This document shows positions 27,935 to 56,515 of a DNA stretch of 64,000 nt, piece by piece. This DNA is from Thalassospira lucentensis MCCC 1A00383 = DSM 14000 (GTDB lineage Bacteria > Pseudomonadota > Alphaproteobacteria > Rhodospirillales > Thalassospiraceae). The notes under the pieces are model-generated. The model was given only the letters and a program-made list of their open reading frames with translations. It searched no databases and was not told where the DNA came from. The stretch lies in the NCBI RefSeq assembly GCF_000421265.1, contig NZ_ATWN01000010.1, forward strand, positions 124,001-188,000, given 5' to 3'. The translations under genes and the position numbers were made by a program. Numbering within the stretch: the stretch's first letter is position 1; each line of letters opens with the position of its first letter.

Positions 27935-28203
27935 CTAGGCTCAGGACCTCTTAATTTGGTTTGAATGGTTGACCGGATTTGTGCGGATACGCGGAGCGAA
28001 GCCGCAGGAAGATATATATCTTTCAAGGTTTTGCGACAAAGTAGCCCGTGCAAATCCGGTCAATCCAAAGGACAGACGTTATATTTGCAAACTCCTGCGT
28101 CAAACCCCTTGTCCGGGATACCAGCCCGCCCGGCGGGCTTTTCCTCGGATTTCACAAATATAACGTCTGCCATTCCAATCAAATTAAGAGGTCCTGAGCC
28201 TAG
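27935..28203. repeat. structured 269-bp intergenic element, copy A
   Basis: A self-complementary element bounded by 24-bp perfect inverted arms (CTAGGCTCAGG... and ...CCTGAGCCTAG), continued by ten more partly paired bases to AATGG/CCATT. Inside are two arms: TTGACCGGATTTG (27969-27981) with CAAATCCGGTCAA (28051-28063), and CAGACGTTATATTTG (28073-28087) with CAAATATAACGTCTG (28155-28169). Inner hairpins are GGAAGAT/ATCTTTC and AGCCCGC/GCGGGCT. It has the same plan, length and loop sequences as copy B at 56248-56515, with different but paired stems. It has no coding capacity. Confidence 0.85.
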
Positions 28204-28228
28204 GGTCATGAATACACGGTGGTGCCGG

Positions 28229-28690
28229 TTATGATACCGGGGTCACCGTGATTTCTGTTTTGACCGAATTGGCAAGGAAGCAGGCTTCATGTGCGCGATG
28301 ATGAAGGTCGGCTTCAAGGACCGCATCCGGCGCGTTGCCGAGATAGGTCACACTTGGCTTAAGCGCAACTTTGGTGATCATGGTTTTGCCATCGATCTTT
28401 GCCATTTCCCCGGTGGCAGCGTCGACATAACGGTCAACGACAAGGCCGCTATCAGACGCAAAATGCAGGAAGAACAACATGTGGCAGCTTGAAAGTGCGG
28501 CGACATAGGCTTCTTCGGGGTCGACATTTTCCTCAACCGAATAGGGCAACGGCACGACATGCGGCGATGATGACGCCGGAATTTCGACCCCGCCATCAAA
28601 TCGCCAGACATGGCCGCGGGAATACCGGCGGTCGGTAAACTTTTCCGTTGCCGAACGGGTCCAGATAACTTCTGCGCCAAAGCTGCTCAT
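28229..28690 (-). CDS. OsmC-family peroxiredoxin-like protein
   Basis: A 153-residue OsmC/Ohr-superfamily protein with the two redox cysteines in LSSCHMLFFLH (about residue 88) and HEACFLANSV (about 139), which in the family reduce organic hydroperoxides. It resembles the OsmC-like subgroup (SRGHVWRFDGGVEIPASSSP, DPEEAYVAALSSCHM) rather than Ohr. GGAG lies six bases before the ATG. It is convergent with the methyltransferase gene across the structured element. Confidence 0.9.
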   Translation of the reverse strand: MSSFGAEVIWTRSATEKFTDRRYSRGHVWRFDGGVEIPASSSPHVVPLPYSVEENVDPEEAYVAALSSCHMLFFLHFASDSGLVVDRYVDAATGEMAKIDGKTMITKVALKPSVTYLGNAPDAVLEADLHHRAHEACFLANSVKTEITVTPVS

Positions 28691-28933
28691 GGAGGGCTCC
28701 GTTTATGGGGCTTGCCCCGATGTTAGTGGGGATAACGGAGTATAGAATGCCTTGGTGGTGGAAGTTGCGCAATGATGATGATCGAGGTTTCCAATGGTGC
28801 AAATGACGCAAATGGCGCCCAAAAGATATCAAGCTCTGATGCCGAAGTGTCTTGCATCATTCAACTGACATTCATCCATGTCCAAACAGACCTGCGAGGG
28901 TTTATTCCCGCCGTGGTGGGCTAGGCCATGACG

Positions 28934-31285
28934 CTATTCTGCCGAAATCACCTTGGGTATACGATGTGGTGAGTCGACATGACGTTCGACGAACTGCAGG
29001 ATGCGTTCCTGCGCATTGTCGATATCCTCATTGAGGATGCCATGACGGTCGGATTTCAGCATCTGCACATCCAGATCGGTTATCCCGGTGGCAAGGCGTT
29101 TAATCATCCGTGCACTGGCCGGATCAACCACTTGATCGCCATCACCCTGCAAGATCAGGGTCGGGCATTCAATATCGGGCAGGCAACGCTGCATTTCCGC
29201 TACCGCCTGGCGCAACTGATACAATCCGCCGATGGGAATGTTGCGGTAATTGATCTCGGGATGTTCTGACTCGTTTGTTCGGAAGCTCAGCATTTCCTGT
29301 GCCGATGGCATCCAGCCCATCAGCTTGTTCGCACCATACAGCAACGGCACAAACATTAGATTGCGATTGCGGAACTTAAGCGGTGTTCCAGCCAGAACCA
29401 ATGCGGTCAGTTTTTCAGGATGGGAACTTGCATGGATCGCCGCCAGTGCACCGCCAGTGGAAAAACCGACGATAATGATCTGGTCGCAAAACGGTGCGAG
29501 AATGTCATAGCCACGTCGGACAGATGCCAGCCAATCGGTCCATTTGCGTCTTTGTAATTCATGGGGCGATGTCCCATGACCGGCAAGCCGTACACCCATG
29601 ACAGCATGTCCCTGTGCGGCAAATTTTTCGCCCAGTTCATACAGTTCCGCCGGGGATGCCAGAAACCCGTGCACCAGCAAAACGCCAAGCGTGAAATGCT
29701 CATTGCCGTTGGGCAGGTTCAAATAAGGGCGGCTGTCGGCAGTGGCGGTTTCCTGTGAATTGATCGTATCGTACTTGGGTTTTTCGTATCTTTTGCGGTT
29801 CCATTGCCACGCCCGGATTTCATCATCGAACTGGCGATGGGCAATGTCGCGATCTGTCAGGTTATCAACTTCGGCACGCGCCCGTTCAAGTGCCTGCCAA
29901 ACCGCATGGATCGGGGACATTTCGTTGGCATAAACCATGATCGGGTTGTCCATGCGGATTTGATCAAACCCGGCTTCGGCCTGTAACTTTTCAAGGAAGC
30001 AGTATTTTCCGTCACGGCGCTCAATCAGGCCCAGTTGAACCGCACTGTCGATAAAGAACCGGATTTGCGGACACTTCAAATCAAAGATGCCGATGTAATC
30101 GGCCGGGTTCAGCATGCCGCGATGCAGATGAACCGTATCGACCTGCTGGATGTTTTTGATCGCCAGATAAAGCGTGCGGTCAAAATGTTCGATATCAACT
30201 TCCGTGACCCCGTCATCAAGCCACATCATAATCAGGCGCGACGCCAGATGACTGACATTGATTGTCAGGTTGGAATACATCACCGCCATGCAGTGATCGC
30301 GAAGCGGCGAGATATGACGCGTCAGGGCGTATTGCGTAACCCGATCTGGCAGGGTTTCAAGGGTTTTGGCCGGTTTGAATAAATCATCAATGCTGCCCGC
30401 GCGTTGTACGCGCCGGGCCAATAGCCGCCGATCAAGCCAGTTAAACTGACCGCGTGGATCAACCGGGTCGCCCAGACGGATATCCATATCGGTCTGTTTG
30501 AACATCAGGTTGCCTTCAATGATCATTTCTTCGGCCATCTTCGGGCTCAGCCCGCCAGTAAACATATCCGCCGCCCGGGCAAGAATATTCTGATCAACGC
30601 GGAGCGGATGAAAGGTAATGTTGGCTGGAAACATCAAGGTTTGTTTGGCCAAAACGGTCCGCAGCGTATCTTCATCGACCTCAAGAATACCGGCCCAGCG
30701 GGTGAGTTCACGGGTATCGCCTTTGGCAATGAGCGCGGATAAACCGATTTTAAAGCCATCAATACACAGTCCCAGAAGGGCGGCACCAGTATGATGGGCA
30801 CGTCTGGCGTCGGCGGATCGGGAATAGACACTGTAATCGGGGCGTTTGGGATGTGGGCGATCGTTAAGCGTGACGCGCCGGTCCTTGACCATCCCGCCTT
30901 CGGGGAAGACGACGACCTTGCCGCCGCGCAGGATTTCCTCGGCCAGAAAGGGCAACAGCCGTTCATAATTGTTGGGCACCCCGCCAAGTGCACGCAGATA
31001 GCGTGAAAAGGTATTGTCCTGCGCAAAAAATTCCCCCGATGCGATGGAGCGGCAATAAACACCGGTTTCCAATGCGATCAGATATTGCGGGATAAAGGTT
31101 TCAAACCGGGCGAAATGGTTGAACATGAAAATATCGCCCTGTGCCAGATGGTCTTGCGCACCATGCATCTTGATATTGATGTCGATATTGGCGCGAAGGG
31201 CCGTCATCGCGCGCAACGTCCACTCGCACGTTTTCGGATTAATGGCGAATTGTTCGCGTTCGATCTCGCGGAAAGACTGGTTCAT
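28934..31285 (-). CDS. acyltransferase - alpha/beta hydrolase fusion protein
   Basis: A 783-residue two-domain protein. The N-terminal part (about 30-430) is PlsC-like, with NHFARFE carrying an HX4E box (H57, E62) in place of the usual HX4D, and the FPEGG box at 127-131. The C-terminal part (about 530-783) is a monoacylglycerol-lipase-like hydrolase with LLVHGF, nucleophile S609 in GFSTGG, D717 and H748. A middle helical region links them. No signal peptide is visible. I took the ATG at 31285; the frame is open further upstream to 31615 and the ribosome binding site is weak, so the start is uncertain. Lipid remodelling is inferred. Confidence 0.78.
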   Translation of the reverse strand: MNQSFREIEREQFAINPKTCEWTLRAMTALRANIDINIKMHGAQDHLAQGDIFMFNHFARFETFIPQYLIALETGVYCRSIASGEFFAQDNTFSRYLRALGGVPNNYERLLPFLAEEILRGGKVVVFPEGGMVKDRRVTLNDRPHPKRPDYSVYSRSADARRAHHTGAALLGLCIDGFKIGLSALIAKGDTRELTRWAGILEVDEDTLRTVLAKQTLMFPANITFHPLRVDQNILARAADMFTGGLSPKMAEEMIIEGNLMFKQTDMDIRLGDPVDPRGQFNWLDRRLLARRVQRAGSIDDLFKPAKTLETLPDRVTQYALTRHISPLRDHCMAVMYSNLTINVSHLASRLIMMWLDDGVTEVDIEHFDRTLYLAIKNIQQVDTVHLHRGMLNPADYIGIFDLKCPQIRFFIDSAVQLGLIERRDGKYCFLEKLQAEAGFDQIRMDNPIMVYANEMSPIHAVWQALERARAEVDNLTDRDIAHRQFDDEIRAWQWNRKRYEKPKYDTINSQETATADSRPYLNLPNGNEHFTLGVLLVHGFLASPAELYELGEKFAAQGHAVMGVRLAGHGTSPHELQRRKWTDWLASVRRGYDILAPFCDQIIIVGFSTGGALAAIHASSHPEKLTALVLAGTPLKFRNRNLMFVPLLYGANKLMGWMPSAQEMLSFRTNESEHPEINYRNIPIGGLYQLRQAVAEMQRCLPDIECPTLILQGDGDQVVDPASARMIKRLATGITDLDVQMLKSDRHGILNEDIDNAQERILQFVERHVDSPHRIPKVISAE

Positions 31286-31591
31286 TCGGTGCGATACCCC
31301 GGCGCTGTCACAATGGCTGTTCGAGGACGTTCTCCGGCTTTCTTGGTGTTTTGACCGGCAGGTTTCCCGATTTTGATATGTGTTCTTTGATCTGCTTTGG
31401 GAAGGTATTCTACAAATGAATTGCGAAGAATTAATGCCAATCTGGCATGTCTTTCGTATAATCGGACAATCGCCCTTATCGTCTTTGTGATAGATCATTG
31501 GCGGTGTCCGACTTCTTGGGCGCTTTTGTGCCATCCCTCCTTGCGTCCTTGCCAAACCTGATCTGCCTGTCTTTTGACGATTGGAGTCTCC

Positions 31592-32878
31592 TTGCCGTCC
31601 CCTGCCCCCGATCAACCCGAGCCATCATCAACGCGCGTGGTTTCCGCGTCGGGCGATACACGTCCGCAGTCGATCTTTTCTGATCGTAATTTTATCCTGT
31701 TTCTGGTTGGGCAATGCATCACGACCCAAGGCCTATGGGTGCAGAAAATCGCCATGTCATGGCTGGCGTGGTCTTTGACCGGATCGGCATTCTGGACCGG
31801 CACAATTGCCGCATTGAATTTCGCACCGGCGTTTTTTCTGGGGCCGATTTTCGGGGTGATGGCCGACCGAGTTGATTTGCGCCGTACCGCCATGGTGATC
31901 AATCTGGGGCAGGCAGCCGTGTCGTTCCTTCTGATGGGCTTGTCCTATGCCGATATGATGAGCCTGCCGTGGATGGTGGTTCTGGCGGGATGCATGGGTA
32001 TTTTGGGCAGTGCGATGACACCGGTGCGGCTGTCACTGGTGCCGGTGATTGTAAAGCGCGAATTCATGAGCCGGGCGGTGGCCTATGCGGCGATGAATTT
32101 CAATATTTCGCGTCTGGTGGGACCGGCTGTTGGTGGGGTTGTGATTGCGACATGGGGCACGGGTGCGGCCTTTATGATCAATGCGCTCAGTTACCTTCCA
32201 ATGATCTTTGTGATTTCAGTGGTCACGATCCATATGGACCGCGCGCCCGATGCCAAAAGTCGGCGCATCTGGGCATCGCTTGTCGATGGCGCGCGTTATG
32301 CCATTCACCATCCGATGATCCGGTCTGTACTGGTGTTGTCATGCTTTGTGTCGCTGGTCGGAACCGGCATGGTCGAACTGATGCCGGTCTTTGCCGAGGC
32401 GGTTTATGAACGTGGTGTCACCGGGCTTGGCATGCTGGCATCTGCGGGCGGGGTCGGGGCGGTGGCATCGACCTTTTTCCTGTCACGGGTCGGATCGAAC
32501 GCGGCCGATTATCAGCGCATTACGATTTATGGTGCCTTTGGCGCATCGGTCGGGATGCTGGGGCTTGGATTTGCCCCATGGTACGAAATGGCAGTTGTTC
32601 TGGTCGCACTGACCGGTGGGGGTTTGACATTGGTCGGGGTGGGGTCTCAAACCGCCCTGCAACTGACCGTCGATAACCGGCTGCGCGGTCGGGTAATGAG
32701 TTTCTGGAGTGCAACCAGCTTTGGGGGCATGGCGCTGGGTGGGACGTTGCTTGGCGCGATATCTGAGGCCGGTAACATTCAATATACCGCGCGCGGGTCA
32801 GGCGTCTTGATCTTGTGTGCCGCACTGATTGGCCTGTGGCGGCTGTATCGGATTGGCAAGCTCGGGGCGCGCTGTTAA
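31592..32878 (+). CDS. MFS exporter (EntS/MFS_3-like)
   Basis: A 428-residue major facilitator with about 12 membrane segments: the first begins at FILFLVGQCITTQGLWVQKIAMSWL, followed by the GPIFGVMADRVDLRR loop between helices 2 and 3. It is closest to the EntS-like drug/siderophore export branch by its motifs. The TTG at 31592 has GGAG five bases upstream; no nearby ATG precedes the first helix. It is divergent from the acyltransferase-hydrolase gene. The substrate is unknown. Confidence 0.82.
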   Translation: MPSPAPDQPEPSSTRVVSASGDTRPQSIFSDRNFILFLVGQCITTQGLWVQKIAMSWLAWSLTGSAFWTGTIAALNFAPAFFLGPIFGVMADRVDLRRTAMVINLGQAAVSFLLMGLSYADMMSLPWMVVLAGCMGILGSAMTPVRLSLVPVIVKREFMSRAVAYAAMNFNISRLVGPAVGGVVIATWGTGAAFMINALSYLPMIFVISVVTIHMDRAPDAKSRRIWASLVDGARYAIHHPMIRSVLVLSCFVSLVGTGMVELMPVFAEAVYERGVTGLGMLASAGGVGAVASTFFLSRVGSNAADYQRITIYGAFGASVGMLGLGFAPWYEMAVVLVALTGGGLTLVGVGSQTALQLTVDNRLRGRVMSFWSATSFGGMALGGTLLGAISEAGNIQYTARGSGVLILCAALIGLWRLYRIGKLGARC

Positions 32879-32972
32879 ATGCCGATGTCATGCCAATGAC
32901 GGGCAACAATAAACAATTACTTAAACCCTGTCGGTCTAAGGTCATTCATTGTGATGTTTTTGGGGAACTGAG

Positions 32973-33542
32973 ATGCGCCTGATCGGGATCGTCGGATTGT
33001 GTTTGATGCTGTCTGCATGCTTTACCACCGCAAAATCGGTTTCCCGGTCTGATGGGCCGATGCCCAGTGATACGGTTCAGCTCCTGACCAATGTTAGCGT
33101 GCCGAACTCCCACCTCAACAGCTTTGCCCCGACCAGCAAGTTTTTGCAATGTGTGCCCTATGCCCGTGAAGTCTCGGGGATTGAGATTTATGGCGATGCC
33201 TGGACATGGTGGGCGCAGGCTGGCAACCAGAATTATGCACGTGGACATCAGCCCCAAGTTGGCGCGGTCCTGACCTTGCGTAAAACGTCACGTTTGAAAC
33301 TCGGCCATGTTGCAGTTGTTTCGGCCATTCTTGATGATCGCAAGATATTGGTTAATCAGGCCAACTGGGGCGGCGATTCGCGCACACGCGGCAAAGTCCA
33401 TTACCGTCAGCCCGTGGTTGACGTCTCGCCCAATAATGACTGGTCGCAAGTGCGCATGATGAACACGCTTGGCACCTTTGGCCGTATCTATCCGGCCCAT
33501 GGCTTTATCTATCAGCCCCGCGAAACGGCCGAAGCCAACTGA
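32973..33542 (+). CDS. CHAP-domain lipoprotein (putative peptidoglycan amidase)
   Basis: A 189-residue lipoprotein: signal peptide with lipobox LSAC (C16), then a CHAP domain with catalytic C60 (FLQCVPYAR) and H112 (KLGHVAVV), and the GDAWTWWAQA motif between them. CHAP enzymes cleave peptidoglycan amide bonds, so an envelope-anchored wall hydrolase is the likely role. The ATG lies just after TGGGGAACTGAG, 95 bases after the MFS gene. It ends close to a terminator that serves bioB from the other strand. Confidence 0.86.
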   Translation: MRLIGIVGLCLMLSACFTTAKSVSRSDGPMPSDTVQLLTNVSVPNSHLNSFAPTSKFLQCVPYAREVSGIEIYGDAWTWWAQAGNQNYARGHQPQVGAVLTLRKTSRLKLGHVAVVSAILDDRKILVNQANWGGDSRTRGKVHYRQPVVDVSPNNDWSQVRMMNTLGTFGRIYPAHGFIYQPRETAEAN

Positions 33543-33575
33543 TCTCTTTTTCCTGCCCATAGATACCCGCCGATT

Positions 33576-33617
33576 AAAAAAAAATGGCGAAGCCCCCGGA
33601 TTAAAGGAGCTTCGCCA
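33576..33617 (-). terminator. rho-independent terminator of bioB (minus strand)
   Basis: On the minus strand TGGCGAAGC and GCTTCGCCA form a nine-pair stem followed by nine T. A second hairpin (AACCCGTAC/GTACGGGTT at 33623-33645) precedes it. Confidence 0.88.
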
Positions 33618-33661
33618 ATTGAAACCCGTACGGGCGGTACGGGTTCGGGGGTTGAACTGTT

Positions 33662-34660
33662 TCAGGCCGCGATCGGACCCAGTGCCTTGAAAAGGGCGGT
33701 GTCGCTGTCTTCTTCCGGGTTGGGCGTGGTCAAAAGCTTTTCACCGTAAAACACCGAATTGGCTCCGGCCATCAGGCACATGATCTGTGCTTCGCGGTTA
33801 AGGTCTGTACGCCCGGCAGACAGGCGCACGGTTGATGTCGGCATGACGATGCGTGCGGTCGCAACCATGCGCACCAGTTCCAGCGGATCAATCGGATCAC
33901 GATGGGCAAGTGGCGTTCCCGCCACCGGAACAAGGGCGTTGATCGGCACACTTTCAGGATGGGGCGCAAATCCGGCAAGAACCTGAAGCATTGATGCCCG
34001 GTCACGGATGGTTTCACCCATGCCAATAATCCCGCCACAGCACAAATCAATACCGTGGCTGCGCACGGCGGCCAGTGTATCAAGCCGATCCTGATAGGTG
34101 CGCGTGGTGATGATCTGGTCGTAGAATTCCGGGCTGGTATCAAGGTTATGGTTATAGGCGGTCAGTCCGGCCTGTTTAAGCTGTTGCGCATGATGGGGTT
34201 CGAGCATCCCCAACGTGACACAGGCCTCCATGCCAAGATCATGCACACCGCGCACCATCTCAAGCACCGCATCAAATGCGGCTCCGTCGCGCACTTGGCG
34301 CCATGCCGCCCCCATACAGAAACGATCCGCACCGGCATCCTTTGCGCGGGTGGCCATTTCAATGACCGATGCCGGGTCCATCAGATGTTCCTTGCCCAGT
34401 TTGACCTCGCGGTGGTGGGCCGATTGCGGGCAATAAGCACAATCTTCCGGGCAGCCGCCGGTCTTGATCGACAGCAGGCTGGCCTTTTGCACATGATCGG
34501 GATCGTGATGGGCGCGATGCACGGCATTGGCCCGCCCCAGCAATTCCAAAAGCGGGCTGCGATAAATCGCCTCAACCGCATCAACCGTCCAGTCATGGCG
34601 CGATGCATCGGGCGAGGCTTTTGGCGCATCGCCGCAAAGGGTGCGGTGGGCGGTTGCCAT
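33662..34660 (-). CDS. bioB: biotin synthase BioB
   Basis: BioB is the radical-SAM enzyme that inserts sulfur into dethiobiotin. It has the cluster motif [11 protein letters not shown], the [11 protein letters not shown] and [13 protein letters not shown] segments, [10 protein letters not shown], and the [2Fe-2S] arginine region in VRLSAGR. I use the ATG at 34660, which has AGGA nine bases upstream; an ATG at 34681, four bases after the bioY stop, is equally in frame and could be used by coupling. No other biotin ring-assembly gene (bioF, bioA, bioD) is in the window. Confidence 0.93.
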
Positions 34661-34685
34661 ATCGGTTGATCCTGCTGTCATGGGA

Positions 34686-35282
34686 TCAGGCCGCATCAGC
34701 GCGGTTTGATGCTTTGTGCTTGGTCAGGCGCGTGATCGCAGCACCGCCAAGGGCTACCAGCGCAATCTTGATGGTGTCGCCAAGAATGAATGGGGTGAAG
34801 CCAAGCGCAACAACCTTTTCCGATGCGACAAAACCCGAAAGCCCCGCCAGCCCCAAAAGATAGACTGGCACCATGCCCGCCATCATCACGACAAAGCGCC
34901 CAAAAGCACCACGATCGCGTGCCAGTGCGCCGACAAAGCCCGCCGCAATCAGATACCCGGCCAGATAGCCACCCGTTGGGCCCATCATATAGGCAAGACC
35001 AATCCCGCGTTCCGGCGTTCCGGCAAAGACCGGTAAACCGGCCGCCCCCGTCGCGAGATAAGCCAGCATGGTTGCAACAGCGATGCGCGGGCTGGTGGCG
35101 ACTGCAATTGCCATGATCGCCATGGTTTGCAAGGTCATCGGGACGGGCCAGAACGGCACGGTGGTTTTGGCACTTGCAGTGATCAAGGCGACGCCAAGCA
35201 CGACCATCAGGCAGTATTTTGCCCCGGTCAAAACCGGATTGTTCAATGGTGCAGATGTCGCATGTGAAACGGGATTGACCAT
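34686..35282 (-). CDS. bioY: biotin transporter BioY
   Basis: A 198-residue membrane protein, the substrate-binding S-component for biotin: six hydrophobic segments with [45 protein letters not shown] (family hallmark) and [15 protein letters not shown]. No energy-coupling genes (bioM, bioN) are nearby; solitary BioY is known to work in some bacteria. AAGGAG lies 12 bases before the ATG. Two BioR boxes stand upstream. Confidence 0.93.
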
Positions 35283-35317
35283 GGTGATGACGTGCTCCTT
35301 AAGACCGCAATTCAAAA

Positions 35318-35327
35318 TTATCTATAA
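35318..35327. promoter_or_regulatory. BioR operator 1 (bioY promoter)
   Basis: TTATCTATAA fits the palindromic BioR consensus TTATMKATAA and lies 36 bases before the bioY ATG, overlapping a possible -10 on the minus strand. Confidence 0.8.
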
Positions 35328-35455
35328 AAATTAATCTGATCTATTAATTACGGCGTCATTGGTGCTTAAAATCAATCCCAAAATTCATTAAACGGCGAAA
35401 TTTGTGAAATCATTCGTCGAACTCAACTTATCTAATTGAATTTAAAAGATAAAAA

Positions 35456-35465
35456 TTATCTATAA
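35456..35465. promoter_or_regulatory. BioR operator 2 (distal, bioYB)
   Basis: A second exact TTATCTATAA, 138 bases further upstream from the first. Paired boxes would allow cooperative binding or looping. Confidence 0.7.
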
Positions 35466-35555
35466 AATCGGAAAGTTTAGGCATAATACGGCTCAGGCAG
35501 ATGCCTGTCGTGGCATCCATCCAATCATCAGACCAGAAAAAGGGTTGATTTCGGC

Positions 35556-36206
35556 TTACGAAGGCGCGCGCATATGTCGTTTGGCACCGGTTTTGGTGCC
35601 GATCCATTTGACGTGACGGGCAAGGGTCGCGGCAGCTACATCAAACTGATGTTCATGCAGGGCGCGTAAAATGGCGCGGTGGTCCTGATCGGTCGGGGAT
35701 TCCCATTCCATGCGAAATCCCGAAAACAGGAACCGGGCACTTGCGGCATGTAAATCATCAATCGTCGCCATCAAACGCGGCATGTTGCAAGGTTCAAGAA
35801 TGATGCGGTGAAACGCCTTGTTGGCTTCCTCCCATGCCCGGACATCGGGGGCATTTTCCCCAGCCCGGTTGATGGCTTCTGCCTTGTCAAGGATCGCACT
35901 GGTCAGGTGCGGGGCTGCGTGGCGCAGGGCCAGAACTTCAAGGGAAGCGCGCATTTCGGCAACTTCGCGGACTTCGGCGATATCAAAACTGGCAACGCGG
36001 ACACCCCGGCGTGGTTCGCTAACGACAAGCCCTTGCGCTTCGAGCCGCCGGAATGCTTCGCGTACCGGTACGTGACTGGCGCCAAATTCCTCGGCAAAGT
36101 GATCCTGACGCAATTTGGTGCCCGGCCCGATGTCGCCAGAAATGATGCGGTCGGCCAGTGCCCGGGTGATGCGCCCGGTGATCGTGGTATCAGAGTCATT
36201 TTTCAT
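35556..36206 (-). CDS. bioR: GntR-family biotin regulator BioR
   Basis: A 216-residue GntR/FCD-type repressor: winged helix at the N-terminus (ITGRITRALADRIISGDIGPGTKLRQD, then VPVREAFRRLEAQGLV) and an all-helical ligand-binding FCD domain (about 85-205). Identification as BioR rests on its position next to bioYB and on three TTATMKATAA boxes, two before bioY and one at its own start. The start is uncertain: ATG 36206 or ATG 36227; neither has a clear Shine-Dalgarno. Confidence 0.85.
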   Translation of the reverse strand: MKNDSDTTITGRITRALADRIISGDIGPGTKLRQDHFAEEFGASHVPVREAFRRLEAQGLVVSEPRRGVRVASFDIAEVREVAEMRASLEVLALRHAAPHLTSAILDKAEAINRAGENAPDVRAWEEANKAFHRIILEPCNMPRLMATIDDLHAASARFLFSGFRMEWESPTDQDHRAILRALHEHQFDVAAATLARHVKWIGTKTGAKRHMRAPS

Positions 36207-36210
36207 GATT

Positions 36211-36220: not shown

Positions 36221-36256
36221 TTTGCATGCGCGCACTTGTCGAGCATGCAATACGCT

Positions 36257-48271: not shown

Positions 48272-48870
48272 GCACCGGCGTTCCGATCAATCAGGTTGCG
48301 AACGGGCAGACCTTCCTTGATCTGGTTTTGCGCAACCGATTCAATCACATCATACTGGATCGGTTTTGTGATTTTGGGTTTGATGATTGGTGGCTGACCG
48401 CCGGGTGCCTGGCGCAATCAGTCTGGAATGTATCAACCAATCGTCCGGCGGAAAACGGAATAGCTGATTACGACCTGTTTTATTACGATCCCGATACCAG
48501 TTGGGATGCCGAGGATAACGTCATTACCGCGATTGCTGAGCTGTTGTCAGACCTGCCAATCCGGATTGAAGTGCGCAATCAGGCCCGCGTGCCGATTTGG
48601 TATCGGCAAAAGTACGGCATTGAATATGGTGCGGTGAATGCCGCCAGTGATGGGATTGACCGGTTTGCCTATCGCACAACCGCCATCGGACTGCGCAAAG
48701 ATGCCGACGGATATCGTCTATATGCGCCGTTTGGGCTGGATGCGGTTTTAAGTGGTACGATTATCCCCAACCCGGTCTTGCCGATCCGTCAGGTCTATGA
48801 AGCCAAAACCGGCAGATGGCAAAACATCTGGGCCGACCTTCGTGTGATGCCATGGCCGGATGACGATTAA
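48268..48870 (+). CDS. nucleotidyltransferase family protein (DUF925-like)
   Basis: A 200-residue protein resembling the DUF925/NTP_transf_6 group: DDWWLTAGCLAQSVWN near the N-terminus, ADYDLFYYDPDTSWDAED with the acidic metal-binding pattern, RVPIWYRQKYGIEYGAVNAASDGIDRFAYRTTAIGLR, and a C-terminal IRQVYEAKTGRW. The substrate is unknown. The start overlaps cobD (ATGA), implying cotranslation, but a role in cobalamin synthesis has not been shown to my knowledge. Confidence 0.8.
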   Translation: MSTGVPINQVANGQTFLDLVLRNRFNHIILDRFCDFGFDDWWLTAGCLAQSVWNVSTNRPAENGIADYDLFYYDPDTSWDAEDNVITAIAELLSDLPIRIEVRNQARVPIWYRQKYGIEYGAVNAASDGIDRFAYRTTAIGLRKDADGYRLYAPFGLDAVLSGTIIPNPVLPIRQVYEAKTGRWQNIWADLRVMPWPDDD

Positions 48871-48872
48871 GC

Positions 48873-50345
48873 TCAGTCCTTGCCCTTGTTCATGCGTGCA
48901 ATGGTCGATGTGGTTGAAAAACCGTCTTCAAGATTGGCCAGAACCACCTTGCCGCCATACCCTTGAACGATCTCGGCTCCGACCACCTTATCAATCGTGT
49001 AATCGGCCCCTTTGACCAGAATATCGGGTTTGATCGCCGATATCAGATTGACCGGGGTGTCTTCGCCAAAAATCACCACCCCACTGATGGTTTCAAGCGA
49101 TCCCAGAACAGCCGCACGGGCCGCTTCGGACTGAACCGGGCGGGCTTCCCCCTTAAGCCGTTTGACCGATGCATCGGAATTAAGCCCGACAATCAGCCGG
49201 TCACAGGCCGCGCGCGCCTGTTTGAGCAAGCTGAGATGACCGGGATGCAAAAGATCAAAGCAGCCATTGGTAAAGCCGACCTTATATCCCTTACGACGCC
49301 AGCGTTCCGCACGGTCCACCATACGGTCAAGCGGCATCAGTTTGGCTTCGCCAATCATCAGGTCATGATGATGCAGGGCGGAAATCAGTTCATCCGGGTA
49401 GACAATCGCCGTGCCGATTTTACCAACCACGATGCCTGCCGCCACATTGGCAATGCGCGCCGCATCCGAAAGGCTCGATCCCGCCGCAATCGCCGCTGCA
49501 AGGCAGGCAACAACGGTGTCACCTGCCCCTGAGACATCAAAAACTTCGCGCGCCTCAGTCGGCAGGTGAATGGCCTCACCGTCCTTGGTCACCAGCGTCA
49601 TACCGTCCTGGCTTCTGGTCAGAAGGACGTTATCAATGCCGCAATCAGTGATGATTTTGGTGGCAGCTGCAATGGCATCTTCGTCGCTGTTAACAGCAAT
49701 GCCGGTGGCGGCCTGTGCTTCGGCGCGGTTTGGCGTCACAACCGTGGCCCCGCGATAGATGCTGTAATCGGTCCCTTTTGGGTCAACAATTACCGGTTTG
49801 CCCGCTGCACGGGCCGCATTGATTGCACTTGCGACAACATCCGTATGCAAGACACCCTTGCCATAGTCCGACAGAATGATCGCTTCGACGTCAGGGGACA
49901 GCTGACCGGCAAGGGCGGAAAGGTTGCTGATGGTATCTGCTGCAATGGGCGATGTGGTTTCGTTGTCAGATCGCAACAACTGCTGTCCGCTGGCGATATA
50001 GCGGGTCTTGATCGTGGTCGGACGGTTGCGCTCTGTCTGGATATAGGGTTCAACACCGGCGTCATTGGCGACATATTCCATGACTTCGCGTCCGGGAAGG
50101 TCATCACCGACCAGGGATAAGAACTGCACAACCGCCCCAAGGGCGGTGGCATTGCGCGCGACATTGCCCGCCCCGCCCAGCATCGCACTTTCGCGCTCCA
50201 CCCGAATGATCGGGATCGGGGCTTCGGGGGAAATGCGATTGACCGAGCCATAGACAAACCGATCGAGCATGACATCACCGATACACAACACCTTGGCGTT
50301 GGTGAGTTGTTCAACCTGAAGGGCCAGATGGCTGAGATCGGTCAT
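48873..50345 (-). CDS. hldE: bifunctional heptose-7-phosphate kinase/heptose-1-phosphate adenylyltransferase HldE
   Basis: HldE makes ADP-heptose for the lipopolysaccharide core. Over 490 residues the kinase domain (PfkB type: DVMLDRFVYGSVNRISPEAPIPI, MLGGAGNVARNATALGA, DVSGAGDTVVACLAAAI) is followed by the nucleotidyltransferase (VGFTNGCFDLLHPGHLSLLKQA, KPDILVKGADYTIDKVVG). It lies 41 bases after gmhA in the same direction. Its end is convergent with the nucleotidyltransferase gene. Confidence 0.96.
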   Translation of the reverse strand: MTDLSHLALQVEQLTNAKVLCIGDVMLDRFVYGSVNRISPEAPIPIIRVERESAMLGGAGNVARNATALGAVVQFLSLVGDDLPGREVMEYVANDAGVEPYIQTERNRPTTIKTRYIASGQQLLRSDNETTSPIAADTISNLSALAGQLSPDVEAIILSDYGKGVLHTDVVASAINAARAAGKPVIVDPKGTDYSIYRGATVVTPNRAEAQAATGIAVNSDEDAIAAATKIITDCGIDNVLLTRSQDGMTLVTKDGEAIHLPTEAREVFDVSGAGDTVVACLAAAIAAGSSLSDAARIANVAAGIVVGKIGTAIVYPDELISALHHHDLMIGEAKLMPLDRMVDRAERWRRKGYKVGFTNGCFDLLHPGHLSLLKQARAACDRLIVGLNSDASVKRLKGEARPVQSEAARAAVLGSLETISGVVIFGEDTPVNLISAIKPDILVKGADYTIDKVVGAEIVQGYGGKVVLANLEDGFSTTSTIARMNKGKD

Positions 50346-50386
50346 TTTTGATGTCTTTGCTGTGTCGTTATCGCGAAAGGGTCGAA

Positions 50387-50971
50387 TTATTTCTTGGCCA
50401 GACCAAGCGTATGTTCAAGCGCACCCACCAGCATCTGACCGATCTGAATGTGCATTTCCTGAATACGGGCAGTGGTATTGCTGGGCACAATCATGATTGG
50501 GTCGCAAAGATCAACCATCTCGCCACCGGTCTTGCCGGTCCAGCCGGTCGCAATCAATCCCATCTCGCGCGCCTTGGCCAAACCAAGATTGACGTTCTTG
50601 CTGTTACCCGATGTCGAAATGCCAATCGCGACGTCATCGGGATTGCCAAGGGCTTCGATCTGACGCGAAAACAAATGATCAAACCCGAAATCATTGCCGA
50701 TTGCCGTCAATGTGGAGCTATCGGTGGTCAGCGCAATCGCCGGAAGGGCGCGACGGTCATGAACATAACGCACCGTAAATTCAGTCGCGATATGCTGGGC
50801 GTCTGCGGCTGATCCACCATTGCCAAAAAACAGCAATTTGTTGCCGTCATTGAGCGCATCGGTGCAAATCTCGACCAGCTCGATAAATGCATCGCGGGTT
50901 GCTTCGCGGGTCTTGTTGACCAGATCAAGATGCTCGTCAAATTCAGCATCGAAAAAGGTTTTAATATCCAT
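50387..50971 (-). CDS. gmhA: phosphoheptose isomerase GmhA
   Basis: A 194-residue SIS-domain isomerase converting sedoheptulose-7-phosphate to heptose-7-phosphate, the first step toward ADP-heptose. It has KLLFFGNGGSAADAQHIATEF, AIALTTDSSTLTAIGNDFGFDHLFSRQ and GISTSGNSKNVN. It heads the gmhA-hldE pair. Confidence 0.95.
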   Translation of the reverse strand: MDIKTFFDAEFDEHLDLVNKTREATRDAFIELVEICTDALNDGNKLLFFGNGGSAADAQHIATEFTVRYVHDRRALPAIALTTDSSTLTAIGNDFGFDHLFSRQIEALGNPDDVAIGISTSGNSKNVNLGLAKAREMGLIATGWTGKTGGEMVDLCDPIMIVPSNTTARIQEMHIQIGQMLVGALEHTLGLAKK

Positions 50972-51253
50972 ATTTTTCCAAATCCTGAGATATGGGATTA
51001 GTGATGCTGGGCAATCAGCTTGTAGAAATGATGTGGCAATGAATGCTAAATCGAGCTGAAACTATCAGTTTGAATAGCGGAAAGCTACGACTTATCTTTT
51101 TCCGATCATCGCCTGAATTTGTCCGATTTTCACCTTTGGTTTCAATAGGTGGGGATGATAAATACATAAGCTGTTAATTAGCAGGCACTATGATAGTACG
51201 GGCGGAGTATTGGCTCTGTTTCCGGCGCAACACACAATCTGGTCATCATATTT

Positions 51254-52483
51254 ATGTCTGATAGCTCACTTCCATCACCTGAAGCCTTCCTCGTCGACTA
51301 TGTGCGACGCCTTGAACGGCGTAAGGAAGGGGTGGGGGCTATTCATGTGCATTTTTCAAAATTGTTAGCGTTTAACCGCCGTGACCATCATATCCGCACG
51401 GCCATTGGCGCGTTTGAAGAAATCGTTCCCGAAGTCACCGGGCGCATCTTTACCCTGTCCAATCAGGATCTGATTTTCATTTTCGATGCCGCCGAGATGG
51501 ATGAGGTCAATGCGGTCATTTTCCGGCTGAAATTCCTGTTTAACGATGATCCGCTGATCAGCGATGGCAAGGATGAAAGTGGCGCACCGGCAACCTTTAC
51601 CGATTATTTTGATGTCGGGCAGGAATATAAGGATTTCCTGCATCTGACCCAGACATTGGTACGCTCAAACGCCAATCGTCCGCGTGTGGTCAGCAAGGCC
51701 GCCGAACGTCACAATGATCATCCCGATTATGGTGATGATAGGATGCCGTTAACGCCCAAAATTCTGGGGCGTATTGATGAATCCCTGCGGCGGGCCGATT
51801 TATCAAATCTGATGCGCCGTCAGGCGATTTGTGCGGTGGTTGGGGACGCTAACCCGACGCCGGTCTTCCACGAACTCTTCATTTCGATCAAGGATTTGCA
51901 GGAAACCCTGCTGCCCGATGTCAATGTGTTGTCGAACCGTTGGCTGTTTCAGCATCTCACAGAAATTCTGGACCGTCGCATGCTGTCCCTGCTTACGCGC
52001 AGCAATGATGCATCGGTTACCGGGTCGGTCAGTATTAATCTGAATGTATCGACCCTGTTATCCCCTGATTTCCTGACATTCGATAGTAACGTCAAGGCCG
52101 GCCAACGCGGCACGATTGTTCTGGAACTGCAAAAGATTGATATCTTTGCTGATCTTGGGGCATTTTTCTTTGCGCGTGATTTCTGCCGGGATCGCGGCTA
52201 TCGCATCTGTATTGACGGCATCAGTCACCTGTCGCTGCCCTATATCAATCGCAACAAACTTGGCGTTGATATGATCAAGATGATCTGGGATACGGACATG
52301 GAAAGCATGGATGACGAACATAAAACCGCCATGCGTGATGCGGTTGCAGAGTCCGGGGATACCCGTGTGATCCTGTGTCGCTGTGATGATGAACGGGCGA
52401 TCAAATTTGGTCACGGGATCAATATCACCATGTTCCAGGGGCGCCATGTTGAACACCTGATGAGCGAGCGGACAAAAAAATAG
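51254..52483 (+). CDS. degenerate EAL-domain protein
   Basis: A 409-residue cytoplasmic protein. The C-terminal half (about 165-400) follows the EAL fold pattern: FHELFISIKDL where the EAL motif would be, SINLNVSTLL for the N-containing strand, IVLELQKIDIF for the E-containing strand, and CIDGISHLSLPYINRNKLGVDMIKMIW in place of DDFGTG. The EAL and DD metal ligands are lost, so it should not hydrolyse c-di-GMP. The N-terminal half (about 1-150) may be a degenerate GGDEF-like domain. A receptor or regulator role is inferred. Confidence 0.65.
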   Translation: MSDSSLPSPEAFLVDYVRRLERRKEGVGAIHVHFSKLLAFNRRDHHIRTAIGAFEEIVPEVTGRIFTLSNQDLIFIFDAAEMDEVNAVIFRLKFLFNDDPLISDGKDESGAPATFTDYFDVGQEYKDFLHLTQTLVRSNANRPRVVSKAAERHNDHPDYGDDRMPLTPKILGRIDESLRRADLSNLMRRQAICAVVGDANPTPVFHELFISIKDLQETLLPDVNVLSNRWLFQHLTEILDRRMLSLLTRSNDASVTGSVSINLNVSTLLSPDFLTFDSNVKAGQRGTIVLELQKIDIFADLGAFFFARDFCRDRGYRICIDGISHLSLPYINRNKLGVDMIKMIWDTDMESMDDEHKTAMRDAVAESGDTRVILCRCDDERAIKFGHGINITMFQGRHVEHLMSERTKK

Positions 52484-52503
52484 CCCCGATTTAGCCGGGG
52501 CTA
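52474..52503 (-). terminator. rho-independent terminator of cobT (minus strand)
   Basis: TAGCCCCG (52481-52488) and CGGGGCTA (52496-52503) pair perfectly. Read on the minus strand the stem is followed by seven T. The T-run lies inside the last codons of the EAL-protein gene on the other strand. Confidence 0.8.
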
Positions 52504-52549
52504 CTGTCTTGCATGTTTGGCTTTGCTCAGTGGGTTCAGACTTTAAGTC

Positions 52550-53578
52550 CTAATCCTTGCCGTCAACGCCTGCCTTGTCAAAGGTCGCCATGTTATTGTG
52601 GCATTCCGCAGCCGCGCGCAGAAGCGGGATCGCCAATGCGGCACCCGATCCTTCGCCAAGGCGCATCCCGAAATCAATCAGCGCCTTCTTGCCCAGCTTT
52701 TCAATAAGGCGACTGTGGCCGGGCTCTGCCGACACATGGCCCACCAGACAGTGATCAAGCGCATCGGGGCGGATGGCGGCCAAGACGGCGGCCGCCGCAC
52801 AGGACACATATCCATCAAGTAGAACCGGTACACGTGCAAAACGGGCGGCAATAATCGCCCCGGCCATGGCGGCAATTTCACGTCCCCCGACACAGCGCAG
52901 AACATCAAGCCCGTCATGCATCTGGTTTTTGTGCAGGATGATGGCATCACCCACAACACGGGTTTTACGGATCAGGGTTTCGTCATCAATTCCGGTTCCC
53001 CGACCGGTCCAGTCAGCAGCCTCACCACCATATAGCGCGTGCGCAATGGCCGCAGCCGAGCTGGTGTTGCCAATGCCCATTTCGCCAGGGACAAACAAAT
53101 CGAGCCCCTTTTCAATCGCACTCATGCCAAACGCCATGGCTTCTGCACAACCTTCGTCATCCATGGCGGGTTCTTGGCTGAAATCATTGGTGGGAATTTC
53201 AAGGGCGACTTCCATCACACGCAGTTCGGCATCAACCGATTTGCAAATCTGGTTGATGGCGGCCCCGCCATTGATAAAGTTTTCAACCATCTGCTGATTG
53301 ACCGTTGCCGGAAAGGCCGAAACACCCTGTGCCACGACACCATGGCTGCCGGCAAAGACAGTGACGCGTGGGCGCGACATATTGGGGCGCGACGTTCCTT
53401 GCCATCCGGCCAGCCACAGGCTGAAATCTTCAAGCCGTCCCAGCGATCCTGCCGGTTTTGTCAGAGTTGGCTCACGCTGCAAAACGGCTGCCTGTGCCTC
53501 ACTGTCTGCTGATGGCAGGTCGGCAAGGAGGGCGCGGATTTCGTCAAGGTTTTGCGGCGGGTGCTTCGGGTTGAACAT
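52550..53578 (-). CDS. cobT: nicotinate-nucleotide-dimethylbenzimidazole phosphoribosyltransferase CobT
   Basis: CobT activates the lower ligand base to alpha-ribazole phosphate. The 342-residue protein shows TKPAGSLGRLEDFSLWLAGWQG, VFAGSHGVVAQGVSAFP, GEMGIGNTSSAAAI and the catalytic glutamate region FGMRLGEGSGAALAIPL. GGAGA precedes the ATG. It is divergent from cobS, which uses its product. This is the CobT of nucleotide-loop assembly, not the cobaltochelatase subunit of the same name. Confidence 0.95.
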   Translation of the reverse strand: MFNPKHPPQNLDEIRALLADLPSADSEAQAAVLQREPTLTKPAGSLGRLEDFSLWLAGWQGTSRPNMSRPRVTVFAGSHGVVAQGVSAFPATVNQQMVENFINGGAAINQICKSVDAELRVMEVALEIPTNDFSQEPAMDDEGCAEAMAFGMSAIEKGLDLFVPGEMGIGNTSSAAAIAHALYGGEAADWTGRGTGIDDETLIRKTRVVGDAIILHKNQMHDGLDVLRCVGGREIAAMAGAIIAARFARVPVLLDGYVSCAAAAVLAAIRPDALDHCLVGHVSAEPGHSRLIEKLGKKALIDFGMRLGEGSGAALAIPLLRAAAECHNNMATFDKAGVDGKD

Positions 53579-53826
53579 GTTGGTCTCCGGCTGGCAGGCG
53601 GTGGCGTCAAGCGTGTTCCGCTTGGCTTCTGTTACGGTAAAGTTTAGGTTGAGAGCCCAATTGCTTAGGACGTTTCGCTATAGGCTGTCGTTTGGGGACA
53701 AACAGCTTAAGCTGGCAGTGAAAAGTGTTTTGATCCGCGGTCCTTGGACAACAACGAAACCTTCTAAATAATTGAGGCCTCAACCTAGGCCTATGGTTAC
53801 CATAACACCAGATCGAAAATCGAAAA

Positions 53827-54687
53827 ATGACGGCATCTAAAGATCATAATCAAAACGAAACAAATATGCAAAGTTCTGATGGTGGCACCGAAAACCCACC
53901 AGAAGACAGCACCTTTGTTGTAGGTAAGATTCCGGTGGTGTCTGATTTCTTTCGTGCGCTCGTGCTGCTCAGCCGGGTGCCGGTTTTCCGGATCAATGAT
54001 TTTCGCCCAGCCCTGATTGCCCGGTCGGTCTGGTGCTGGCCCTTGGTTGGGCTGTTTTTGGCAGGCATTGCCCTCATACCGGCCCAGTTGGCAGCTTATT
54101 TGACGGAAAGTGCGGTGGTTTTTGCCATTGTTGCCGTCCTTGCGTTGGTTCTTTTGACCGGTGCGATGCATGAAGATGGTCTGGCCGATTGCGCCGATGG
54201 TTTTGGTGGGGGGCTTGATCGTGCTCGAAAACTTGAAATCATGCGTGATAGCCGTATTGGCACGTATGGCGTGGTGGCCCTTGTCTTGTGTCTTGGGCTG
54301 CGCATTGCGTTGCTGGTGCGGGCTGCTGACGCTGGGCAGGCGGTTGTGCTTTTGCTTGTGATGGCGGTGGTATCGCGCGGTGTGATGCCGGTTTTAATGA
54401 CGGTTCTTTCACCGGCGCGCGATAACGGACTTGGCAAGAATGCCGGTCAACCCAAATGGCGTCATGTGATGCTGGGTGTTGCGATTGCCATCGCGATTGT
54501 TTGGCTTTTGTCCGGGCCTGTCGTGATGGCTTCGGTTGTTGTGGCTGCGATGCTGGCGACGGCTTTGATGGCGGGGATCGCCAGATGGCAAATTGGTGGA
54601 CAAACCGGGGATGTCTTGGGGGCGACACAAATGGTGGCTGAACTGTTTGTCGCTATTGGATTTGTCGCGACGATGGGCAATATCTAA
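53827..54687 (+). CDS. cobS: adenosylcobinamide-GDP ribazoletransferase CobS/CobV
   Basis: This inner-membrane enzyme joins adenosylcobinamide-GDP and alpha-ribazole phosphate, the last step of cobalamin assembly. The 286-residue protein has a polar 35-residue N-terminus, then membrane helices with MHEDGLADCADGFGGG and KLEIMRDSRIGTYGVVAL, and the late GGQTGDVLGATQ motif. No clear ribosome binding site precedes the ATG at 53827. Confidence 0.94.
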   Translation: MTASKDHNQNETNMQSSDGGTENPPEDSTFVVGKIPVVSDFFRALVLLSRVPVFRINDFRPALIARSVWCWPLVGLFLAGIALIPAQLAAYLTESAVVFAIVAVLALVLLTGAMHEDGLADCADGFGGGLDRARKLEIMRDSRIGTYGVVALVLCLGLRIALLVRAADAGQAVVLLLVMAVVSRGVMPVLMTVLSPARDNGLGKNAGQPKWRHVMLGVAIAIAIVWLLSGPVVMASVVVAAMLATALMAGIARWQIGGQTGDVLGATQMVAELFVAIGFVATMGNI

Positions 54688-54749
54688 GAGGTATCTGATG
54701 TCGTTATCTTCGGGCCGATAGAAAGACGCAGTCCGTGGTGGGGAGCTCT

Positions 54750-55358
54750 ATGAAAAGTCAAACAACACGCTGGTGGCTGGTCCGTCATGCGCCGGTTCTT
54801 AACCCGGAACGGCTGGTCTATGGCCGAAGCGACATGCCCGTTGATTTGTCAGACGAAAAAGCACTGCGTGCTCTGGCCCGGCATTTGCCAAAAGATGCCG
54901 GGTGGGTGACGAGCCATTTATCGCGCACACTTGATACCGCCCTTAAATTGCAGGAACTGATTGACGAAGACGTCCTTCCAACGCGCGAAACAGCCCTTGC
55001 CGAGCAACATTTCGGGGCTTGGGAATTGCAGCATTGGAATGATTTACCCAAAGGCGAAACAACAAAATTCTGGACGGATTTCGCCCGTCAGCATCCCCCG
55101 AACGGGGAAAGTTTCTCTGATGTTGTTGCCCGTGTCGGGCCGATTTTCAGTCGGCTAAACCGCTATTGGGCGGGACGCGATATTGTCGCCGTGATCCACG
55201 GCGGGACCGTGCGTGCGGTGCTTGCCAATGCACTCGGCCTATCGCTTGAAACCGCCTTGTCGTTTCACATCGACACACTTGGGCTAACACGACTGGAATA
55301 TATTGACGGTGTTGATCAACCCGGCTGGCGCGTAACGGCGGTCAATCAGCGCTACTAA
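54750..55358 (+). CDS. cobC: alpha-ribazole phosphatase-type histidine phosphatase
   Basis: A 202-residue phosphoglycerate-mutase-fold phosphatase: catalytic RHA in WWLVRHAPV, the LSRTLDTALKLQEL segment, FGAWELQHWNDLPKGE and the second histidine in AVIHGGTVRAVLANALGL. Its place 62 bases after cobS supports the alpha-ribazole-5'-phosphate phosphatase (CobC) role, though the fold alone is not specific. GGGGAG lies just before the ATG at 54750. Confidence 0.82.
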   Translation: MKSQTTRWWLVRHAPVLNPERLVYGRSDMPVDLSDEKALRALARHLPKDAGWVTSHLSRTLDTALKLQELIDEDVLPTRETALAEQHFGAWELQHWNDLPKGETTKFWTDFARQHPPNGESFSDVVARVGPIFSRLNRYWAGRDIVAVIHGGTVRAVLANALGLSLETALSFHIDTLGLTRLEYIDGVDQPGWRVTAVNQRY

Positions 55359-55372
55359 GACCTGTGGGATGT

Positions 55373-56140
55373 CTATGCCGATTGTAATTCCGCGTTTTGC
55401 GACGTGTTGCCCAAGGCATATTCGGCGAGATAACGGTCAATCATATCACTGGTAATGTCGTATTTTTCGCAAAGCGCGGTCACATCGCGAAGGTACGCCT
55501 CGTAATAGGGGACCGGGCGGCTGCGTGATTTGTTACGCAGTTCCGCAATGTTGGGAAAATCACGGGCAAAGGTGCTGTTTTCGATGACCTGAATGATGGT
55601 GTCATCAATGATCGCAGCGGGCATACCACAATAGGTTTTGCCACAGGCAGACAGCATTTTGCTTGCTGTCGGGACCGAAATGCCGGGCTGGGCCAGCAGT
55701 TCATTTAACTCATCATTGCGAAAATCGGCTACCGACATCAATGTGATCAATGTTGGAAGGTCGCGGACCAGAAGTGACAAGGCATTCACACGCATCCCGC
55801 GCGCATGGGACCAGAAAATGGTCGCAATGACGCCGGTTGCGGCATCTTGCGCAAAAATATTACGTACATCACGCCGTGCAAGCGTGATGTCGTCATTTGT
55901 TGCGTAGTCATCAAGAAATCTATGAAACGCCCTGTCTTGCGTGTTTAAACGTTCAAGAAGCCCCAGCCACATGTCTTTGCGTGATGAGGTGATCCAGGTT
56001 GGCGTTCTTAGTTCACGGATTTTGTGTAGGTGCGCATGAATTGCCATCTGATCTTGCAAATATCCAGTTAACCCCAAGAGTTCCAAGTTGCATGTCACTG
56101 CAACCAACCGGGTTATGATTGTTTTTTCCCCGGTCATCAC
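55373..56140 (-). CDS. uncharacterised protein, possibly with a helix-hairpin-helix segment
   Basis: A 255-residue, mostly helical soluble protein that I do not recognise. It is rich in Leu, Arg and Asp. The middle (LLAQPGISVPTASKMLSACGKTYCGMPAAIIDDTI) has the LPGIG-like turn and following helix of helix-hairpin-helix glycosylase-type proteins, but a catalytic Lys-Asp pair cannot be assigned. No signal peptide or membrane segment is seen. It is convergent with cobC and its 5' end faces repeat copy B. Codon use looks similar to its neighbours. Confidence 0.6.
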   Translation of the reverse strand: MMTGEKTIITRLVAVTCNLELLGLTGYLQDQMAIHAHLHKIRELRTPTWITSSRKDMWLGLLERLNTQDRAFHRFLDDYATNDDITLARRDVRNIFAQDAATGVIATIFWSHARGMRVNALSLLVRDLPTLITLMSVADFRNDELNELLAQPGISVPTASKMLSACGKTYCGMPAAIIDDTIIQVIENSTFARDFPNIAELRNKSRSRPVPYYEAYLRDVTALCEKYDITSDMIDRYLAEYALGNTSQNAELQSA

Positions 56141-56247
56141 ACTGGCTGGCGCTTGTTATGGCTCTCATTCCAGCGTGATAATATTATGTTCTCTTAAATG
56201 ACCGGGGGTCTCAAGCAGGCAATTCTGTCAAATACTGACCTTATGGT

Positions 56248-56515
56248 TAGGGTCTGAACCCAATTGAATGCTTGAAATGGTCGCGAGGAATTTGTGCGGA
56301 TATCAGGAGCATTACCGCAGCGAGGCTCGCTGCCTTGCAAGGTGATGCGACGTAATAGCCCGTGCAAATTCCTCCGATCCGAAGGACATCAGGACACTCT
56401 GCGACCTGCTGCGTCAATCCCCTTGCCCGGGGCAATACCCCGCGCGGCGGAGATTTCCTTGCATGTCTTGTTTGTTCTGATGCCATTTTAAACATTCAAT
56501 TGGGTTCAGACCCTA
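56248..56515. repeat. structured 268-bp intergenic element, copy B
   Basis: Bounded by 23-bp perfect inverted arms (TAGGGTCTGAACCC... and ...GGGTTCAGACCCTA), continued by about ten more paired bases to AATGG/CCATT. The inner arms are GAGGAATTTG/CAAATTCCTC and CATCAGGACA/TGTTCTGATG (one G-U), with an inner hairpin GCAGCG/CGCTGC. Loops shared with copy A (27935-28203) include TTTGTGCGGATA, TAGCCCGTGCAAAT, AAGGACA and CTGCGTCAA-CCCCTTG. The stems differ from copy A but keep pairing. It ends about 33 bases before the cobalamin riboswitch. Confidence 0.85.

Follow-up and report, generated by a model that had tools for sequence, protein, structure and literature searches.

The question raised by this locus is what kind of element can keep its loops while its helices change. 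Two such features lie within the window, i.e. the whole 64,000-nucleotide stretch of Thalassospira lucentensis DNA that was analysed, and an earlier, sequence-only reading saw in them a possible 'structured RNA or hairpin-based mobile element' of an unrecognised family. The loop sequences that it listed as shared are indeed present in both copies, and from the evidence set out below it is almost certain that both features are copies of a mobile element, which is non-autonomous, carries no gene and measures ~265 bp. The copies are found at 27936-28202 (copy A) and 56248-56515 (copy B), the flanking T and A being counted in, and in both a long outer stem encloses two arms, ~95 nt (left) and ~96 nt (right), with the 9-nt hairpin TCCRAAGGA between them. 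Their parts are as follows, with the basis of each placement in brackets (R1 and R2 are covariance models of the left arm and of its apex, respectively):

27937..28201, + strand: copy A, whole element with A...T ends; the flanking T 27936 and A 28202 are taken as the target (empty site in the relative G005, boundary analysis)
27937..27968, + strand: copy A, left strand of the outer stem (sequence, fold)
27969..28063, + strand: copy A, left arm, sense on the + strand (fold, R1/R2 model matches)
27993..27997, + strand: copy A, GGAGC, 5' side of the GGAGC/GCGAC internal loop (sequence)
28033..28037, + strand: copy A, GCGAC, 3' side of the same internal loop (sequence)
28064..28072, + strand: copy A, central hairpin TCCAAAGGA (sequence, fold)
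28073..28169, − strand: copy A, right arm, equal to the left-arm motif (arm model 20.0 bits, E 7.5e-4, on the − strand)
28170..28201, + strand: copy A, right strand of the outer stem (sequence, fold)
56249..56514, + strand: copy B, whole element; the flanking T 56248 and A 56515 are taken as the target (fold, empty site in G005)
56249..56280, + strand: copy B, left strand of the outer stem (sequence, fold)
56281..56377, + strand: copy B, left arm, sense on the + strand (fold, arm-model matches)
56378..56386, + strand: copy B, central hairpin TCCGAAGGA (sequence, fold)
56387..56482, − strand: copy B, right arm (placed by alignment to copy A alone)
56483..56514, + strand: copy B, right strand of the outer stem (sequence, fold)

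Tandem G-A pairs may form in the GGAGC/GCGAC loop of copy A. The predicted minimum free energies are −148.2 kcal/mol for copy A and −144.1 kcal/mol for copy B (z-scores of −15.6 and −12.9), and for neither copy did any of 200 shuffles fold as well, which bears out the description of a structured element whose helices are complementary within the copy. The family was also rightly called unrecognised, as in Rfam neither copy rises above a gathering score and the matches are at chance level. A cobalamin riboswitch (Rfam RF00174, 82.8 bits) is located at window positions 56543-56724, 28 bp downstream of copy B, so that this copy directly precedes a vitamin B12-controlled leader.

Compensatory covariation, and with it selection on a folded single strand, had been proposed from the two copies only, and both are upheld by a larger alignment. 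Among 33 diverse copies, 95.5% of the cells are paired, compared to 78.3% in shuffled versions and 30.7-45.6% with slid partners (the structure was taken from the same 33-copy alignment and is thereby favoured over the slid-partner versions), while in 69 of 96 pairs both sides have changed with pairing kept; none of the five covariation measures was reached by any of 500 shuffles. The larger counts below refer to 118 copies, from which copies of ≤ 255 nt, copies scoring < 14 for the outer stem and copies with an identical central 180 nt were excluded, the score filter biasing this set toward paired outer stems. One part of the earlier description fails: the ends are not unrelated between the copies, since both open with TAGGnTC(A/T)GnACC, and G3-C265 and G4-C264 are invariant in all 118 copies. 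The stems of the two copies thus vary on a related frame.

The architecture is that of an inverted dimer, i.e. terminal inverted repeat, arm, 9-nt hairpin, inverted arm and terminal inverted repeat. The L156 copy scores 107.6 bits with R1, and adjoining it, on the other strand, the same model scores 42.1 bits (E 2.6e-8); opposite-strand arm matches were likewise obtained in three out of three named records (E 6.5e-5, 0.062 and 0.63). R2 (70 positions, 31 sequences) was used to scan both strands of 12 loci for a second arm with the filters off, and in nine of them a second match lies on the opposite strand, ~105 nt from the main one (29.5-7.8 bits), the weakest three (L353, L346 and L340, E 2.8-5.2) being counted by position only; at L339, L341 and L350, R2 gave no second-arm match at the expected place. 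When the right arm is folded on the − strand, its helices and internal loops are arranged as in the left arm on the + strand. Together, the opposite-strand matches and the equal fold plan mean that each strand has one sense arm at its 5' side.

The sequence-only reading had suggested comparing empty sites in close relatives, and the close relative G005 lacks the element at both window sites, with a single TA where the window has TA-element-TA (CTTATGGT-TA-GGTCGG at site B, GAATACC-TA-AGGTCAGG at site A). Site B is a single TA in G001 and G007 too, which makes insertion in the window's lineage likelier than loss. Among the loci surveyed, 11 sites have a candidate element-free relative, and five of these are clean, with just one TA (copies A and B, L029/L031, L037/L078/L081 and L300). 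The empty site of L274 has a single TA plus three extra bases, and five others are not clean (L057, L068, L073, L108/L110 and L276), L068 and L037 possibly being one and the same site; at the L037 site, the element-free relative has TA where the copies have TG...CA. The empty sites fit duplication of TA and insertion at T|A without duplication equally. As regards the boundary, the terminal pair beside GGG/CCC is Watson-Crick in 115 of the 118 copies (A-T 108, G-C 6, C-G 1; 102 expected from composition), and the next base outward pairs in 81 (66 expected from composition). The position outside the terminal pair looks like a decaying target, and what is favoured, short of proof, is an element that ends in the pair A...T (or G...C) and is set between T and A.

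The search for further copies in related genomes, also suggested by the sequence-only reading, yielded many, with stems that pair. The T. lucentensis genome itself (4.74 Mb in 21 contigs) has seven long ones, of which three belong to the copy-A type and four, including one with an internal deletion, to the copy-B type; short hairpins of ~46 bp occur there as well (L016 C1:373539, L017 C4:241662, L018 C9:103495 and L021 C7:42353). The latter consist of the outer stem and the right-hand inner strand without the arms, have the junction CC|ATT in both subfamilies and are probably internal deletions. At no fewer than 12 places in the same genome that are intergenic by eye (e.g. L118-L127), a bare 14-16 bp TAGGGTCTGAACCCA(A) occurs, i.e. 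the copy-B-type left end with unrelated sequence beyond; the reversed control pattern had no matches. Copy B matches 24 of the 29 Thalassospira genomes at E ≤ 0.001 (T. lucentensis itself counted), with at least 15 to 35 matches each, partial ones counted, in G000, G005, G012, G015, G016 and G020-G023. G009 and G017 have no copy-B match at that threshold, yet diverged copies are present in both, which brings the carriers to at least 26 of the 29 genomes of the genus. G010 and G013 gave no match in these searches. Orthologous copies (L035/L055, L112/L113, L037/L081 and others) often diverge less than their 250-bp flanks, as in one example with 2 differences in a 265-bp element between flanks that are 92-94% identical.

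Beyond the genus, the left-arm pattern occurs in at least 116 stretches of named genomes, many of them Thalassospira, the other hosts being Nitratireductor, Mesorhizobium, Hoeflea, Pseudohoeflea, Maritalea and a Cohaesibacteraceae bin. Viral contig L307 has a copy of the GGGTCCAAACTC subfamily (11258-11334), and copy B is without a match in the GenBank phage set. Among 385 Alphaproteobacteria, R1 found six genomes at E ≤ 1e-4, of which two are Thalassospira; in the other four, which are distant, the apex motif GGAGC...CCGCAGGAA...TTTCAAGG...GCGAC recurs with different ends. R2, the training set of which contains these four distant genomes, found 24 genomes among 398 Pseudomonadota at E ≤ 0.001 (three of them Thalassospira), its E-values being rough, calculated per genome, and the weakest doubtful when taken alone. 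Outside Thalassospira 25 loci were examined, 17 with an inverted repeat (score ≥ 15) that encloses 255-276 bp and eight without; named hosts of relatives are Nitratireductor plasmids, Vibrio campbellii and Halomonas, with a candidate match in Variovorax. The element is thus common in Thalassospira and has relatives elsewhere in the Proteobacteria.

Several variants were observed. Mesorhizobium sp. 61-13 has a one-arm version (L191, − strand, ~7790-7866) of outer stem plus left arm, which makes a 165-bp almost perfect hairpin; a second one-arm version, L248, is at a locus cut by a contig end, and further ones are suggested by the end spacings of 143-148 found in G029, G033 and G015. The 1.5-Mb genome G252 has six relatives (L316, L322, L325, L328, L330 and L332), several of which have TTTAGAGC-type inverted repeats at their ends and small GAAG hairpins beside the arm. 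On the Nitratireductor thuwali plasmid NZ_CP030942.1, a 45-base piece of the element (H5, 239211-239255) lies within an annotated helix-turn-helix regulator gene.

Which molecule folds can be approached via the mismatches that each strand would tolerate. Over the 118 copies, and in counts that are interdependent because the sequences are related, mismatches in the left-arm apex are G-U 165 times versus A-C 12 times when read on the + strand (one pair gives 91 of the G-U), and those in the right-arm apex 44 versus 9 when read on the − strand (one pair gives 25). Outside the apex, the wobble bias is absent or mixed: G-U versus A-C is 28 versus 27 (no strand bias) in outer pairs 1-22, 109 versus 58 in outer pairs 23-33, 25 versus 40 in the left lower stem minus two fixed wobble pairs (229 G-U cells), and, for the whole right arm on the − strand, 112 versus 91 with its own fold and 118 versus 120 with the plus-strand fold. 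As DNA, too, copy A folds well on both strands (predicted z-scores of −13.4 and −12.0), with an altered arm apex in which the consensus apex is not reproduced, and the predicted RNA folds of both strands are stable. A lone transcript cannot hold both arms in the favoured sense, whereas two DNA strands can; single-stranded DNA is favoured, with RNA from both strands as the less likely alternative. Of the two options in the original description, the mobile one is strengthened by the empty sites and the dispersed copies. A plain structured RNA is not favoured: the left and right arms repeat a single motif on opposite strands, and the strand bias at their apices is likewise reversed.

There is about an even chance, in our estimation, that this is a REPIN-like element that moves as folded single-stranded DNA and inserts at T|A by means of a putative enzyme acting in trans. 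A strand exposed as single-stranded DNA (e.g. at replication) would fold into a Y, after which an enzyme encoded elsewhere would recognise the folded 5' arm and the foot of the stem, cut T|A on both sides and insert the element between the T and A of a target. The inverted layout of the dimer would let either strand present the same 5' arm; the stems would stay paired since only well-folded copies move, and single copies would decay after moving. This reading is weakened by the empty sites, which an ordinary transposase that duplicates TA would explain just as well, by the large part that single pairs have in the G-U counts of the apices, by the absent or mixed bias elsewhere, by the relatedness of the sequences, by the altered apex in the DNA folds and by the loci with no second-arm match or a weak one.

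Searches for the mobilising enzyme gave the following. Y1_Tnp (PF01797) has no matches in the T. lucentensis genome (the control was positive in five of 14 genomes), on which ground a RAYT-driven REP was rejected, and an IS630 origin was rejected since DDE_3 has no matches in the T. lucentensis genome either, with three positives among the 17 genomes tried. No autonomous parent with the same ends, i.e. an end pair around a transposase, was seen in eight genomes scanned with patterns of 0 or 1 mismatch, by which diverged ends would be missed. G000 does contain an inverted end pair 2.35 kb apart, and the ORFs that it encloses resemble, by inspection, a LysR-type regulator and a second protein not of transposase type; the inverted end pairs within 5 kb in G029-G033, G015 and G652 are single or neighbouring copies. 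The ORFs around four distant loci include none that is transposase-like by eye.

It could be argued that the element is an ordinary MITE, where a DDE transposase supplied in trans reads the double-stranded terminal repeats and duplicates TA, the arms being a passenger or a binding aid. The single TA at empty sites is also expected from TA duplication, outer pairs 1-22 are indeed without strand bias, and armless short hairpins are present in the T. lucentensis genome. On the other hand, this genome has no match to DDE_3 (IS630-type, and the sole DDE family searched), which was found in just three of the 17 genomes tried, no end pair surrounds a transposase in the eight genomes scanned, and the conservation of structured arms between families with different ends is left unexplained, which makes an ordinary MITE somewhat unlikely. 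Very improbable is an origin of the two-sided changes without selection, through copying of one arm into the other (hairpin template switching or gene conversion). This would agree with an outer stem that is almost perfectly paired in many copies and has no strand bias in pairs 1-22, but in 12 comparisons of orthologous copies (9 sites) one-arm changes outnumber two-arm changes 38 to 9 (12 are of other kinds), and the internal loops and their letters have been retained instead of being converted to perfect pairing. The share of two-arm changes is alike in orthologous and non-orthologous pairs with ≤ 20 differences (0.19 versus 0.12 and 0.22).

The strong covariation, together with the G-U preference that each apex shows on its sense strand, could alternatively point to a structured RNA made from each strand, whose folded transcript would bind a protein with its 5' arm and affect transcript stability or RNA-mediated mobility. 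Stable RNA folds are predicted for both strands, and effects of ERIC and Correia elements on RNA are reported in PMC10969869 and PMC2267715. However, each transcript would have one sense and one antisense arm and there is no Rfam match, while the 38 one-arm changes between orthologous copies comprise 13 G-U versus 14 A-C (and 11 others), a comparison that is not decisive as a whole; such an RNA is considered unlikely.

With movement as folded single-stranded DNA as the preferred reading, the element can be placed among known systems. A REPIN consists of two inverted REP units, and its mobilisation is attributed to RAYT, a Y1 tyrosine transposase; going by PMC3116915, the likeness lies in being gene-less and intergenic, in two inverted units forming a hairpin as single-stranded DNA or RNA (found here as well), in common compensatory changes and in an enzyme located elsewhere. 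The present element differs in its ~265 bp, its two internally looped arms inside an outer stem, its T|A site and the lack of a Y1_Tnp match in its genome. REPIN/RAYT systems are described in PMC3733652 as having a GTAG or CGTC tag at the foot of the palindrome; the foot of the present element, read by eye, is mostly CTAGGG or TTAGGG. ERIC/IRU elements of Enterobacteria and Vibrionaceae, as portrayed in PMC2229807 and PMC10969869, share TA termini, an intergenic location, a long folded transcript (predicted here) and the lack of a known mobiliser, but are ~127 bp long and form a single long hairpin. Homology to ERIC by covariance model is unsupported, as the best scores of R1 and R2 on a single E. 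coli ERIC copy, 2.9 and 2.6 bits, amount to no match. In a post hoc comparison of ends with one E. coli ERIC copy, the Vibrio-type relatives L343 and L350 agree at 15-18 of 26 bases with its 5' end (shuffle p 6e-4 to < 2e-5) and at 12-14 of 26 with its 3' end, seven other subfamilies at 3-14 with the ERIC end (best p 0.0007) and the window copies at 10-13. The ERIC arm also has GGAGC opposite GTGAC. A link to ERIC is thus suggested as a lead by the end sequences, not by the covariance models.

IS630-derived MITEs such as RUP are similar in their terminal inverted repeats and TA target (in the account given in PMC2229807); a TA target is found here too, with duplication not separable from T|A insertion, but T. 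lucentensis has no DDE_3 match, and the arms covary and are conserved across families. Caulobacter intergenic repeats (CIR) are alphaproteobacterial, intergenic and two-armed, but their arms are joined by a linker and expose GANTC, whereas here an outer stem encloses the arms, which sets them apart by description (same account, PMC2229807). The element therefore works like a REPIN or an ERIC-type element and is, by the tests done, a member of neither; it belongs with the transposase-less mobile hairpin elements, its looped-arm inverted dimer inside an outer stem being apparently new. Integron attC sites are read on one strand as folded single strands, whose arms vary but stay complementary and whose unpaired bases are conserved; the element would resemble them in this, but has no cassette gene. 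Within the open-access literature, which omits most subscription papers, no description of such an anatomy and no joint mention of Thalassospira and miniature inverted-repeat were found, and GGGTCAGGACC had an unrelated occurrence only.

It is possible, if doubtful, that these elements form a superfamily of Y-shaped, strand-symmetric transposons in Proteobacteria that move as single-stranded DNA, with ERIC perhaps as a reduced member, and that a putative enzyme reads the folded arm (with its GGAGC/GYGAC internal loop) and cuts T|A, leaving the target unduplicated. In any case, the family makes a direct search for the mobiliser feasible, as it provides a defined structured motif, insertions by which two close genomes differ and predictions that are strand-specific. 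It also holds a caution: covariation need not imply a functional RNA, as it may be the trace of selection on a folded form through which a mobile element passes.
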